Assembly: GCA_019096065.1 (NCBI GenBank)
Contig: JAGUCH010000001.1
Coordinates: 4,402,001-4,466,000, forward strand
DNA length: 64,000 nucleotides
Direction of reading: 5' to 3'
DNA from: Paracyclopina nana
Lineage: Eukaryota > Arthropoda > Copepoda > Cyclopoida > Cyclopettidae
Shown here in pieces: positions 332 to 32,841 of this stretch. Each line of letters begins with the position of its first letter. Position 1 is the first letter of the stretch. The notes under the pieces are model-generated. The model was given only the letters and a program-made list of their open reading frames with translations, was not told where the DNA came from and did no database searches. The position numbers and the translations under genes were made by a program.

Positions 332-1727
332 CTATTCGATATTGAGTCCTGGGCAAATTTCCAGCCTGATGGTGTCGTAGACACACTTCAAGATTGCATC
401 CGCATCCTGGCACAGACTGCGACTTTGCGGCTCTGATCCGGATTTGGCACGGTAGCACACGTGGCCACCACACTCATTAGCGCAACAAACTTCGTCCTCA
501 GCACAGTCGGAATTAGTGAAACAATTCTCAGAGCACGTACTTGGAATCTCCATTGATTCCACGCTGAACTTGGATAGCCAACCCGGAGTCCTCCTCGCAT
601 CCGGACACTCTGAATAGGAATATCAGTTGAATTTGTAGTAAGCTGTCAAGCATTCAGACTAAACTCACTTGAAGAACTGCCGCTGGATTTCATGGGGTCT
701 GCACAGCTTGTCACTGTGTCAGATAATTGGAGAGCCAATTCGTCGTCTGACAATCCGGAGAAATACTCTTGGAAAATTTCCACATCAGGAAATCCGTTGC
801 TGTCAAGAGCATCAATTGCGGACATGTACTCATATCCGAAACACGAGGACTGCAGTAAAATTGTAATGATGATATTTAATGGCTCAATGCTATTTATGCT
901 CACCAAGTGGTCTTTGCTCTGCTTGGCACCATTTTTCCCCTTATTCCATCGTTTGGATTCCAAACTATTGGATTTGCTCTTGTAAAATCTGACTGGCTTT
1001 TTACTTTTAGCGTGTGGCTTTTTCTTCATCTTCAACATAGCTTCGACAGCTCCAACATTCATGCCAACAGCCTCTGAGGTTTTGGCATCATTTTGGCTTG
1101 GCTGCTCCTCTTCCAGGTCGTCAGCATTGAGACGACTTCTGCTCCGTTTCATCCGGATTCTGAATTGAGTGACATCATCTATCATCTGAGTGATGAGGCC
1201 AAGTTTGGTCAAAAAGTTTTCAGCACTATCCTCCTTGACGGACATACAAATTTTTGCTTTCTGTGAGAAGAAAAAGAAAAAAACCCTTATCTCTTGACAC
1301 GCATCTGAGAAAAAGCACTTTTTTGCTATATAGCTCCCGAATCTCAATTAGAAGTGTGAAATAACAGACGTGCCTCATTTTTGGATTCAACTGACGCCAA
1401 CTTCTCCTGCTCATCGAAAAAATACGTCTCAAGCGGACTTTGGGTGGCCTTCGCCACCGATGATTTGGCCCATTGCTCTGGCTTTTTGGGATACTTTGTT
1501 GAGAATATTGGCTTCTTGCTTTTCACTCCATTCTTTTCCATTAGTATCTTGCTGCTGCTGCTGACTCCTTCTTCCCCACCACCAGGTCTGGCCTAGAAGT
1601 AGAGAATCGTGGATTTCGGCCTTTACCACATTTACCTAATGATGGTAAAGAATAAGTGAGTTACCATGGCAAGGCCACCAAGGCCCAAGAGCAGGAGTAA
1701 TACTTTTCTTGTGGTCTTCTTCTTCAT
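332..1727 (-). CDS. Secreted WAP (four-disulfide core) protein with odorant-binding-like flanking cysteines, 5 exons
   Basis: I join five exons with matching phases: 1727-1665, 1592-1370, 1256-904, 849-669 and 609-332, giving about 365 residues. Introns are 72, about 113, 54 and 59 bp, with GT/AG ends; the 1257-1369 boundaries are the least certain. Exon 1 encodes a basic start and leucine-rich core, a clear signal peptide (residues 1-21). Residues 22-213 are basic, Lys/Ser/Glu-rich and low-complexity. Residues 275-325 form a WAP domain: Cys 275, 299, 303, 309, 315, 316, 320 and 325, with the C-x3-C-x5-C-x5-CC-x3-C-x4-C pattern. The first spacer, 23 residues, is longer than usual. Six other cysteines (99, 216, 262, 340, 349, 359) lie outside the WAP. 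Residues 216-262 (a DSNGFPD turn, then an acidic helix ending in Cys) and C340-x8-C349 resemble the C-terminal half of PBP/GOBP odorant-binding proteins. WAP proteins are secreted protease inhibitors or antimicrobials; the function here is inferred only. Confidence 0.8.
850..903 (-). other. 54-bp in-frame, stop-free intron of the WAP gene
   Basis: The minus strand reads TTG|GTGAGC at the left and ACTGCAG|TCC at the right, a good donor and acceptor pair. The interval is 54 nt, sits between whole codons, and contains no stop codon. If kept in the mRNA it would add 18 mostly hydrophobic residues just before Cys216. The abrupt switch from a Lys-rich tail to an Ile/Leu-rich run and back argues that it is normally removed. 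Confidence 0.6.
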
Positions 1728-28967: not shown

Positions 28968-29025
28968 ATGAGGCCGTGATGGTGGAGCAAGGTCGGCCGC
29001 CAACGATGAATAATTAGTCGGCAAT
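28968..29025 (+). promoter_or_regulatory. Toll 5' leader with two upstream ORFs
   Basis: Directly after a strong splice acceptor, the leader opens with a four-codon ORF (28968-28979, ATGAGGCCGTGA). It overlaps by one base a second ORF of twelve codons plus stop (28979-29017), which ends eight nt before the Toll ATG. Such upstream ORFs usually lower translation of the main frame. The acceptor means the real 5' end lies upstream. Confidence 0.6.
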
Positions 29026-32000
29026 ATGATTCGGTGGATCTGGAAAGGCTGCAGCGGCCTCTTCCTCATCTGCTGCCTCGTGGGCCTCGTTATCTGCACA
29101 GAGCCACCCGTACCAGATGACTGTAAATCAAGGCCCTACGAAAACGGCCTCGAGCTCGACTGCAGTCTCAGCGCAATCAACTCAGCAGACGAAAAGACCA
29201 ATTTCAGCGTGCTCCCCTCGGAGCACACGCTCAGCCTCAGAGTGAAATGTCGGGACCCGACCCTGAGCCAACTGGAGGCCAACGGCCTCAGCAGCCTCCA
29301 ACACTTGAAAAAGCTCACTTTGGACGGATGCCATCTCAGGTCGATTCCACCAAAAGCCTTCTGGGGCCTCAGCAATCTAGTCTCATTGACAGTTGTGACA
29401 CGTAACGCCGGAGTGCTGGCGGTCGAGCTAGGTGCCTTTGCCGGCCTCGAAGGCCTCCAAAGCCTAGATCTCAGTGGCAATTATATTCGCCACTTGGCCC
29501 CTGGCGTCCTTTGCTCCCTCCCAAAACTGTCGGTGCTCAATTTGTCCAAGAACGAAATTGGGTCGTTGACCGACCTCGGCCTCGAGCAGCCGCGAGGCTG
29601 CCAAATGGGAGACCTGCACACGCTCGACCTCTCGTCCAACGCCATCAGCGGGATCACGGGGAAGCAGCTCGAGGCCTGGCCTCGGCTGGCCACTTTGAAA
29701 TTGGCCAATAACTTTCTGAGGTCAGTTGAGCGTGATGCTTTCACCGCGAGCAGCCTCCGCGAGATTGACGTGTCAAATAATCAATTGAGCAGCCTCCACA
29801 AGAGCCTGTTCGAGGCCACGAGCGGCCTCCAAATGTTGGTTTTGGCCAACAACACACTGTCGGAGTTGCCCGATAGCATCTTTGACGCAGTGGCAACCTC
29901 AATTCAAAGGCTGGACCTCTCCGGCAACTTCCTGACATCAATCAGCTCGAGGGTCGTCAGTCGGCTGGCCAGCCTCACCACGCTCGACGTGAGCCAGAAC
30001 GAGGTCGAGTCCGTACACGCGCAGGCGTTCAGCGGCCTCAAAAGCCTCACCTACCTGAGGCTGGACGGCAACCGGATCTCGAAACTGTCCAAGAACCTGT
30101 TCAAGGCGTCGGAGAGCCTCCAGACCTTGATCTTATCCGACAATGCCTTGTCACGCCTCGGAGGCCAAGTGTTTGCCAATTTGGCCTCGCTGTCGCATCT
30201 GCTGCTGGATAAGAACCTCCTCGAGGATTTGCCCTCCAGCCTCTTTGACAACACATCGAGCTTGAGCGTGCTGGACCTCAGCCACAACAGGTTCTCCGCC
30301 CTCCCCGAGGCAGCCGAGGCTCTGCACAGCCTACAGTCGCTCTCAATGAGCGGCAACGTTGTGAGCGACCTCGGCAGCCTCAAGATGCCCTCCCTCTGGC
30401 GGCTGCAGGCCTCAGACAACCGACTGACCAACTTGACCTCGAGCAATCTGGCCGGCCTCACCAGCCTCCAAGTGCTGGACTTGTCCAACAACAAGATCAG
30501 CCACGTGGAAAAGGGCCTCTTCGGGGGGCGCAATCTGCCCATCAAGGCCCTGCGGCTGGACGCCAACAGGCTGGAACGGATGGACGGCCTCTTCCAGGAC
30601 CTGGCCGACCTCTCGTGGCTGAATGTTTCTGCGAATTCAATATCAGTTTTCGATTATGCCATGCTGCCTCGTGGTCTCACATGGCTCGACCTCCATCAAA
30701 ATGCGATAGCCTCGCTGGGAAACTACTTCTCCCTCGAGGCCGAGTTTCCGCGGCTGGCTCACATCGATGCCAGTTTCAACAGAATCGCGGAGCTGGGCCC
30801 CCAGAATGTGCCCAACCATGTGGAGACGCTGCTGCTGAACGACAACCAGATCAAGACCTTGGTGCCTTACACGTTCTTCAAGAAGAACAGCCTCAAGAGG
30901 GTGGACCTCACTGTCAACCAAATCGAATCAATTGACCGCAATGCCCTCCGACTGGGCCCCGACGACGATGTCAGTGTCAATAATCCCGAGTTTTTGTTCG
31001 GCGGCAATCCCATCAAGTGCGATTGCCTGATGGCCTGGTTCAAAACCATTAACCAAATGGAGGCCCCCGCAGTAGCAGTGGCGGATTCCGTCAGTTTGCA
31101 GCAAAAGTTCCCCCGAGTGGCCGACCTCGAGTCGATCTACTGTCAACTGCTCTATTCCCGTGACAAATCCTACGTGCCCCTCGTGGAGGCAGCCACTGAT
31201 GACTTTTTGTGCACCTACAAAACGCACTGCTTCGCCCTGTGCCACTGCTGCGAGTACGACGCCTGCGACTGCGAAATGACCTGCCCGGATAATTGCACCT
31301 GCTACCATGACAACTCCTGGTCCAAGAATATCGCAGAGTGCTCCGGATCCGATTTCCACGATCTGCCCGACCAGCTGCCCATGGATGCGACGGAAATCTT
31401 CCTGGACGGCAACAACGTGGGCGAGCTGCGGAGCCACACTTTCATTGGCAGGAAAAACCTCAAGGCACTGTACCTCAACCACTCACTGATCTCTAGTGTT
31501 CAAAATCACACCTTCAATGGACTGGTGTCCCTGCAGGTCCTCCACCTAGAAGGCAACAGCATCAAAGAGCTGCAGGGCGACGAGTTTCATGGCCTCAAGG
31601 CGCTGAGGGAGCTCTATTTGCAGAACAACCTCATCAGGAATGTGAACAACGTCACTTTCAGGGACCTCGAGAGCCTCGAGGTCCTCCACATCCATGGCAA
31701 CAGGTTGATCGACTTCCCGGTGTGGCAGCTCAGCTTCAACCCCAGGCTGGCCTCCATCCGGCTGGCGGACAACACGTGGTCGTGCGAGTGCCAGTTTGTG
31801 GAGAACTTCCACAACTGGCTCGTGAAGCACGCCTCGCATGTGCCCGACGGCAACGGCGTGGCCTGCGTCCTCGACCCCAACGCCCCTGAACTGGGCAGCG
31901 GAGAGGCCGCGGCCTCGGCCCTAGTCAAGACCACCTCTGACGAGTACGCCAGCAACGAGCGGTTCAACACGCACCTGCGGCTGCTGGTGAGGAGCAACAT

Positions 32001-32841
32001 ATCAACTTGTCAGGAGGCCAGCGCGACGACGCATGTTCAAGAAAAAATTGTCAGAGACTACTTGCCTCTCTTGGGAGCTACCTTGGCTGCCTTCGCAGTC
32101 CTTGCCGTCATCGTGATCCTCGTGTTTGTCTATCGGAACGAGGTGCGAGTGTGGCTGCACTCGCGCTACGGAGTGAGGTTTTTCCAGCGCATCGACGACT
32201 TCGAGTCGGACAAGATCTTCGATGCCTTCCTCACGTACAGCGCCAAAGACGACGCCTTTGTGAGGCAAGTGCTCGCTCCCGAGCTGGAGCATGGCCTTTC
32301 TAGTCAACAGTACAAATTGTGTCTCTTCTACCGAGACCTGCCCATCCAAGCCTACTTGGCCGACACCATCGTGCAGGCCAATGAGGCCTCGCGGCGAACC
32401 ATCCTCGTGCTCAGCGAGAACTTCCTCAAGTCTGAATGGAGTCGTTACGACTACAAGTCGGGCCTTCACCAAGCCCTGCGCTCTGGTCGCACAAAGCTGA
32501 TTGTGATTGTGTTGGGCGAAGTGGCCAACCGAGACATCGACCCCGATCTCAGGCTGTATCTCAAGACCAGCATTGTCCTCTACTGGGGCGACAGGCATTT
32601 CTGGGAGAAGCTCAAGTATGCCCTGCCGGATGTGGCCAAGAAGGCCAATGCCAACAACGCGCTCTTCTGCCATGGCTACAACTCGATGCAGCTCATGTCA
32701 TCAGAGTCGGACACAAATTCCTTCAGATATGAGACCTGTCCTCGGAGGCCGATTCCGGTGGCCACCAGTGGCAGTATTTACAACACGGTGGGCTCTGCGA
32801 GCGAGCAGGAATCCACGAGGACCATGACAATCCACATATGA
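29026..32841 (+). CDS. Toll receptor, long type (Toll-6/7/8/18-wheeler group), intronless coding region
   Basis: 1271 residues. The signal peptide covers about residues 1-25. LRRs of 24 residues (LxxLDLSxNxI) run from about 85 to 650. A first LRR C-cap begins near 660 (NPIKCDC) and leads into the cysteine cluster THCFALCHCCEYDACDCEMT near 735-751, a hallmark of long Tolls. An N-cap (CPDNCTC) at about 752, about five LRRs, and a second C-cap (NTWSCEC, about 915) follow. The transmembrane helix is at about 1012-1040. The TIR domain is at about 1062-1202, with FDAFLTYSAKDD, the BB loop RDLPIQAYLADTI (proline kept; Gln where Gly is common), SEW and the FWEKL box 3. The cytoplasmic tail after TIR is short, about 70 residues. 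In flies these receptors act at the cell surface in axis elongation, neural and epithelial patterning and immune modulation. The cluster is closest to Toll-6/Tollo as I recall them, but I cannot separate the paralogs. Codon use is much more GC-rich than its surroundings. Confidence 0.96.
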   Translation: MIRWIWKGCSGLFLICCLVGLVICTEPPVPDDCKSRPYENGLELDCSLSAINSADEKTNFSVLPSEHTLSLRVKCRDPTLSQLEANGLSSLQHLKKLTLDGCHLRSIPPKAFWGLSNLVSLTVVTRNAGVLAVELGAFAGLEGLQSLDLSGNYIRHLAPGVLCSLPKLSVLNLSKNEIGSLTDLGLEQPRGCQMGDLHTLDLSSNAISGITGKQLEAWPRLATLKLANNFLRSVERDAFTASSLREIDVSNNQLSSLHKSLFEATSGLQMLVLANNTLSELPDSIFDAVATSIQRLDLSGNFLTSISSRVVSRLASLTTLDVSQNEVESVHAQAFSGLKSLTYLRLDGNRISKLSKNLFKASESLQTLILSDNALSRLGGQVFANLASLSHLLLDKNLLEDLPSSLFDNTSSLSVLDLSHNRFSALPEAAEALHSLQSLSMSGNVVSDLGSLKMPSLWRLQASDNRLTNLTSSNLAGLTSLQVLDLSNNKISHVEKGLFGGRNLPIKALRLDANRLERMDGLFQDLADLSWLNVSANSISVFDYAMLPRGLTWLDLHQNAIASLGNYFSLEAEFPRLAHIDASFNRIAELGPQNVPNHVETLLLNDNQIKTLVPYTFFKKNSLKRVDLTVNQIESIDRNALRLGPDDDVSVNNPEFLFGGNPIKCDCLMAWFKTINQMEAPAVAVADSVSLQQKFPRVADLESIYCQLLYSRDKSYVPLVEAATDDFLCTYKTHCFALCHCCEYDACDCEMTCPDNCTCYHDNSWSKNIAECSGSDFHDLPDQLPMDATEIFLDGNNVGELRSHTFIGRKNLKALYLNHSLISSVQNHTFNGLVSLQVLHLEGNSIKELQGDEFHGLKALRELYLQNNLIRNVNNVTFRDLESLEVLHIHGNRLIDFPVWQLSFNPRLASIRLADNTWSCECQFVENFHNWLVKHASHVPDGNGVACVLDPNAPELGSGEAAASALVKTTSDEYASNERFNTHLRLLVRSNISTCQEASATTHVQEKIVRDYLPLLGATLAAFAVLAVIVILVFVYRNEVRVWLHSRYGVRFFQRIDDFESDKIFDAFLTYSAKDDAFVRQVLAPELEHGLSSQQYKLCLFYRDLPIQAYLADTIVQANEASRRTILVLSENFLKSEWSRYDYKSGLHQALRSGRTKLIVIVLGEVANRDIDPDLRLYLKTSIVLYWGDRHFWEKLKYALPDVAKKANANNALFCHGYNSMQLMSSESDTNSFRYETCPRRPIPVATSGSIYNTVGSASEQESTRTMTIHI

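Follow-up and report, generated by a model that had tools for sequence, protein, structure and literature searches.

A WAP domain probably placed between the C4 and C5 cysteines of a degenerate OBP-like protein

A five-exon gene on the minus strand (1727-332) of the 64,000-nucleotide stretch analysed here, called the window below, encodes a protein of 365 amino acids (1098 nt including the stop codon) in which a WAP domain has, with fair likelihood, been inserted into a degenerate OBP-like fold, as judged from sequence comparison. The gene model as derived from the sequence, the WAP domain, and an OBP-like profile signal regained on WAP excision are the firm parts of this account. A preliminary description had proposed a secreted chimera joining ligand binding with a protease-inhibitor fold; the OBP-like/WAP chimera is probable given the restored profile signal, but the formal tests for an OBP fail. 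We class the product as an OBP-like and WAP-domain protein rather than a classic OBP because both the curated model PF01395 and the full cysteine pattern fail.

Gene model and genomic surroundings

The predicted introns are of the GT-AG type except intron 2, a GC-AG intron with weaker in-frame alternatives, and exon GC content is 0.43-0.51 versus 0.32-0.38 in the introns (Table 1). With codon usage trained on the Toll frame of the window, the predicted frame ranked highest of the three sense frames in all five exons, and was itself outscored by one antisense frame in exons 1 and 2. Retention of intron 3 could yield an isoform with 18 additional, mostly hydrophobic, residues directly before C216. 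The predicted product has a basic N-terminal half (pI 9.8) and an acidic, presumably helical core (pI 4.1); exon 3 carries the motif RMKR at residues 130-133, which we take to be furin-like, within a region whose charged insert (residues 131-213) holds 16 Lys, 5 Arg, 4 Asp and 6 Glu. Searched against the 92-Mb genome, the protein matched its own exons only at E ≤ 10 (five matches from four first-look candidates), and no relatives turned up in viral and prokaryote contigs.

Table 1. Predicted features of the gene (window coordinates).
Feature	Position	Strand	Content	Basis
Exon 1	1665..1727	-	aa 1-21; start codon and hydrophobic signal-peptide-like segment	donor ATG/GTAACT; ORF
Exon 2	1374..1592	-	aa 22-94, basic; GC-AG donor at end
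Exon 3	904..1260	-	aa 95-213; C99 and charged insert
Intron 3	850..903	-	54 nt, stop-free, in frame
Exon 4	669..849	-	contains OBP-like segment 1; first base of codon 274
Exon 5	332..609	-	WAP and tail, ends at stop
OBP-like segment 1	694..849	-	aa 214-265, within exon 4; C216 (C2 register), E220 at C3, DSNGFPD turn, C262 (C4)
WAP domain	452..609	-	aa 274-326; eight cysteines, C275-C325	PF00095
OBP-like segment 2	350..427	-	aa 335-360, in the exon of the WAP; C340-x8-C349 (C5-C6 register), C359	deletion and tail-swap scans

Elsewhere in the window, positions 29014-32841 of the plus strand hold a Toll-family receptor with LRRs and a TIR in one uninterrupted frame of 1275 codons; ten other long window ORFs gave no Pfam match at E ≤ 0.01. 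To the left of the window (contig 1, 4392001-4402000), GPCR-like, aldehyde dehydrogenase and LHFPL-like tetraspan exons were recognized on the plus strand among ten ORFs examined. These surveys drew on 185 ORFs of at least 72 aa, taken from the left-hand 10 kb and from the window except 28.6-33 kb, and may miss other genes.

The assembly comprises nine large contigs and one small one. Four of the ten contig starts show TTAGG-type repeats, two only N, one a GGCCT array and three neither; contig 1 opens (1-1500) with the 5-bp GGCCT tandem array, unlike the TTAGG-type starts of the four others. A compact Hox cluster of ~190 kb lies on contig 5 at about 6.10-6.29 Mb, where two genes, presumably Dfd and ftz, occupy the strand opposite to that of the remaining seven matches. 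The presumed Ubx gene is 96% identical to its query over the match, and its C-terminal tail, QAQAAKAVHGGHPVHLDGPDGH, contains QAQA, no poly-Ala and no Ser/Thr, close to the pattern given for Collembola in PMC7616481. The TTAGG-type repeats and this tail point to a springtail as the likely, though unproven, host; a search for COX1 found no match.

The WAP domain and the OBP-like segments

The WAP assignment of the preliminary description holds on the curated profile: the match to PF00095 (21.0 bits, E 4e-4) narrowly clears the Pfam cut-off of 20.8 bits, and the same domain scored 25.5 bits in a six-frame genome search. Its eight cysteines (275, 299, 303, 309, 315, 316, 320, 325), spaced by 23, 3, 5, 5, 0, 3 and 4 residues and including the adjacent C5-C6, display the family pattern. 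The domain shares with WAP four-disulfide core proteins such as waprins and crustins the eight-cysteine core with its CC pair and a passing PF00095 score, but differs from them in the long interval, 23 residues, that separates WAP cysteine 1 from cysteine 2, and in being apparently embedded in another fold. Other WAP genes occur in the genome, for example at loci L016 and L021, with L016 the strongest at 42.5 bits; two other WAP regions inspected by eye were without OBP-like flanks.

Outside the WAP domain the 365-residue translation contains exactly the six cysteines that had been listed before (99, 216, 262, 340, 349, 359). The C340-x8-C349 spacing assigned to C5-C6 is likewise exact, the 41 residues counted from position 220 to C262 fit the family range, and C3 is truly absent, its place being taken by Glu. 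The classic OBP pattern is given as C1-x24-33-C2-x3-C3-x35-47-C4-x8-18-C5-x8-C6 in PMC5054612; here, with Glu220 at C3 and distances of 116 residues between C99 and C216 and 77 between C262 and C340, both too long, that six-cysteine pattern is absent.

The PBP/GOBP profile that an OBP would be expected to match, PF01395, was silent on the intact protein, its pieces and its WAP-excised forms (controls: LUSH, 4.9e-23; a provisional, unverified Drosophila Obp59a sequence, 2.3e-8), and exon 4 searched against Pfam let through the unrelated GIPC1_GH2 at E 0.14 but not PF01395. No OBP chain appeared among the PDB sequence hits; the top PDB hit in one search was THR5 (E 6.7e-5), with no single stretch passing alone. 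Across the whole genome PF01395 gave 0 matches and 0 first-look candidates, a result that is uninformative since 14 control genomes also gave none. An OBP consensus found one genomic match (E 1.39), unrelated by eye, and VdesOBP1 and the provisional Obp59a found none; the first look missed this window too in each of these searches. An EF-hand reading of the DSNGFPD turn was considered by eye and set aside, no EF-hand family being among the Pfam matches. The protein shares with classic insect OBPs (PBP/GOBP, PF01395) the C2, C4, C5 and C6 register once the WAP domain is excised, the C5-x8-C6 spacing and, in a low-confidence model, the helix order, and departs from them in the lack of a curated-model match, the missing C3, the displaced first cysteine, the extra C359 and the inserted domain.

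Profile evidence for the placement of the WAP domain

We built an insect OBP HMM from eight sequences with PDB-verified letters plus ASP1 and a consensus, the last two being included in most of the profiles, together with core profiles including or omitting Obp59a and a verified-only profile of the eight PDB-verified OBPs. Exon 4 alone scored 8.8 bits against the insect HMM, a value reached by 0 and 0 of 5000 shuffles (free and cysteine-fixed) with --nonull2, and by 1 and 0 of 5000 with null2. The intact protein scored 5.6 bits with null2 (reached by 36 and 7 of 5000 shuffles) and 10.7 bits without it (7 and 10 of 5000, --nonull2). Among 1604 six-frame ORFs of at least 45 aa from the window and further loci, 12 overlapping or repeated loci having been excluded, exon 4 ranked first with the insect profile (next 6.4 bits) and the intact gene fourth; the core profile without Obp59a again placed exon 4 first, at 10.5 bits, with the intact gene absent among the best six ORFs. 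On the unedited protein the verified-only HMM gave 1.2 bits (P 0.02). Pairwise, exon 4 was near or at chance against most single OBPs (LUSH, for example, 752 of 2000 shuffles) and did best against ASP1 (11 of 2000), AtraPBP (18) and BmorPBP1 (26). The tail alone was insignificant, both with the insect HMM (101 and 631 of 5000 shuffles) and with the provisional Obp59a (896 and 1976 of 10000).

Blind deletion of 40-80 residues from residue 96 onward (215 variants) selected residues 266-335, the WAP with short flanks, as the best deletion in all four profiles, reaching 15.7 bits with the insect HMM and leading by a small margin (9.9 versus 9.2 bits) with the verified-only profile. Fine excision, best of 224, raised the insect score to 21.6 bits, which neither 400 free nor 400 cysteine-fixed shuffles, likewise optimised, could match (0 and 0), nor any of 200 decoy HMMs whose non-cysteine columns had been permuted. 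The corresponding values were 17.9 bits for the core profile without Obp59a and 16.7 bits for the verified-only profile, each matched by 0 and 1 of 400 shuffles. OBP profile homology at lower stringency is present in the WAP-excised protein at 21.6 bits and weak in the unexcised one (1.2 bits, verified-only). Because the best deletion is the WAP itself and its excision beats shuffles and decoys, we conclude that the WAP domain probably lies between OBP cysteines C4 and C5.

In a complementary tail swap, each of 336 stretches of 30 aa was placed behind residue 265, and in three of three profiles the best was the true tail, which starts at 335 and gives a C4-C5 spacing of 8. With the insect profile and the register used initially (tail 336-365), WAP stretches from 310 and 311 (17.0 and 17.9 bits) beat the tail (15.7 bits); shuffled tails in this register equalled the real one in 39 and 112 of 3000 cases with the insect profile, 34 and 107 with the core profile without Obp59a, and 7 and 36 with Obp59a included. 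These results bear on whether exons 1-4 form one gene and exon 5, with the WAP and tail, another. Such an artefact would account for intron 4 lying at the WAP border of a splice model that is itself predicted, and for the weak OBP similarity of the tail on its own, but we regard it as very improbable, given that the splice sites are in phase, that nothing continues exon 4 better than the tail once the WAP is removed, and that no Met precedes the first WAP cysteine in the frame of exon 5 (332-622).

The unexcised alignments, with the provisional Obp59a and with the core profile, begin in exon 4, continue into residues 272-294 and pair the OBP C5 with WAP C275 instead of C340, and our confidence in the insertion is set slightly lower for this reason. 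By hhalign, the WAP-excised core reached 55%, a form with a longer linker 48%, the intact protein 7-8% and an unrelated control ORF 0%. AF2 models computed without an alignment were of low confidence: exon 4 (pLDDT 54) showed helices at 221-230, 235-242 and 248-263, and exon 5 (pLDDT 51.5) two WAP strands and a helix at 335-358. Foldseek returned no match for the exon 4 model and 123 matches at E ≤ 10 for exon 5, none at E ≤ 0.001 and with no OBP among the best 50 of the 123. The modelled topology is compatible with the OBP reading but is no evidence for it.

A WAP protein with unrelated helical, low-complexity flanks, whose acidic amphipathic helices and cysteine spacing came to resemble those of OBPs by convergence, would fit the absence of any curated OBP hit, the insignificance of the tail together with its bypassing in the unedited alignments, and the 7-8% obtained by hhalign for the intact protein. 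We judge it unlikely, since blind deletions choose the WAP in four of four profiles and the optimised excision was equalled by only 0, 1 and 1 of 800 shuffles in three profiles and by 0 of 200 decoys. The C4-C5 placement given in the preliminary description is in this way supported by the deletion scans, shuffles and decoys, whereas the silent PF01395, the low-confidence AF2 models and the unexcised alignments that bypass the tail weigh against it.

Kinship with Obp59a and proposed architecture

The Drosophila Obp59a query is a provisional sequence, unlike the PDB-verified OBPs above. Against it exon 4 scored 58 and the whole protein 69, values reached by none of 10000 shuffles of either kind, and a phmmer search of 1606 sequences with the same query returned the gene at E 1.7e-4 and the next unrelated ORF at 0.14. 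The N-terminal region showed no similarity to this query (7582 of 10000 shuffles reach its score).

Published accounts concur on the length of Obp59a and disagree on its cysteines: the Anastrepha protein has 134 aa between C1 and C2, is treated as a classic OBP, and has an unusual length already known from other arthropods (PMC5054612); the medfly protein of 342 aa is listed as Plus-C (PMC12539182); and the Drosophila protein is listed as being without C1 (PMC3428353). Obp59a orthologs are said to occur in almost all insects, Hymenoptera excepted (PMC8067015), and the humidity responses of flies require Obp59a (PMC6191283). A very long C1-C2 region of the Obp59a type is also found here, at 116 aa if C99 is C1, and the published pattern explains this insert at least as well as a displaced classic C1. 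The distant C1 and extra C359, held against the OBP reading in the preliminary description, are both real, and both resemble the Obp59a clade.

With that clade the protein shares the long C1-C2 insert (as in the Anastrepha protein), a C2-C4 segment similar to the provisional Drosophila sequence and extra cysteines (as in the medfly Plus-C listing), and it differs in the WAP between C4 and C5, the lost C3, the Lys-rich insert and the lack of N-terminal similarity. Given an OBP origin, we rate kinship with Obp59a as slightly better than even; insertion of the WAP into an OBP-like fold together with that kinship is tentative. An OBP-like protein outside the clade, that is, an independent degenerate collembolan OBP with a long insert of its own, strikes us as somewhat unlikely. 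It would be in keeping with the provisional nature of the Obp59a query, the dissimilar N-terminal region and the lower exon 4 score (9.2 instead of 10.5 bits) when Obp59a is added to the core profile, but it sits poorly with the exon 4 score of 58 against the provisional Obp59a, compared with 19-40 against ten other OBP sequences, and with the long C1-C2 insert, a published Obp59a trait (PMC5054612).

Relative to chelicerate OBPs (VdesOBP1, PDB 7nyj/7nza; TurtOBP1), C99 and C359 are placed so that a bridge from the N to the C terminus is possible, and the first cysteine of mite OBPs is described as bridged to the last (PMC8222343, PMC8269058). TurtOBP1 has the spacing C4-x20-C5-x8-C6, and the chelicerate OBPs have no WAP. 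Kinship with chelicerate OBPs was rejected, since the VdesOBP1 score is equalled by 3822 of 5000 free shuffles for the tail and by 938 of 5000 for the WAP-excised core. In four mosquito OBP domains the C1/C3 pair is recorded as having gone in a single event (PMC3428353). OBPs were reported in two springtails and, at that date, in no crustaceans, myriapods or chelicerates (PMC4145409); OBP-like proteins were later described in chelicerates and millipedes (PMC8222343).

From these comparisons we infer the fold, the disulfides, the relation to Obp59a and all functions as follows. The gene would encode a single secreted protein in which the WAP occupies the loop that links helix 5 to helix 6 (C4-C5) in a degenerate OBP fold, and that fold may represent a relative of the Obp59a clade in a basal hexapod. 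Putative bridges would join C216 to C340 (insect C2-C5) and C262 to C349 (insect C4-C6), and, by analogy with mite OBPs, C99 may pair with C359 between the N and C termini, the insect C1-C3 bridge having presumably gone as a pair. The helical, acidic core might serve as a lymph protein with a carrier or structural role; the WAP would project from it as a module for protease inhibition, antimicrobial defence or binding, and the basic half at the N terminus, possibly cut at RMKR, could tether or mask the core. That all of this describes a springtail Obp59a ortholog, which acquired a WAP in its C4-C5 loop, exchanged its C1-C3 bridge for one between the N and C termini and became a bifunctional lymph protein, is a possibility we hold at less than even confidence.

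OBP variants in the literature used are single, double-domain, cysteine-poor and cysteine-rich, and no precedent for a WAP-OBP fusion was found in the literature on odorant-binding and WAP/whey acidic proteins, judged by title. Were a foreign disulfide module to lie within the fold, the C4-C5 loop would be shown to accommodate an inserted domain, and a carrier and a protease-inhibitor fold would be naturally fused in one protein. Should the protein be related to Obp59a, it connects a probable non-insect hexapod with one of the two OBPs that are conserved between insect orders, and may offer a new handle on the role of Obp59a in humidity sensing. Were the ortholog reading true as a whole, a hygrosensory-type OBP would be joined to a protease-inhibitor/antimicrobial fold, and the Obp59a clade would stand at the base of Hexapoda.
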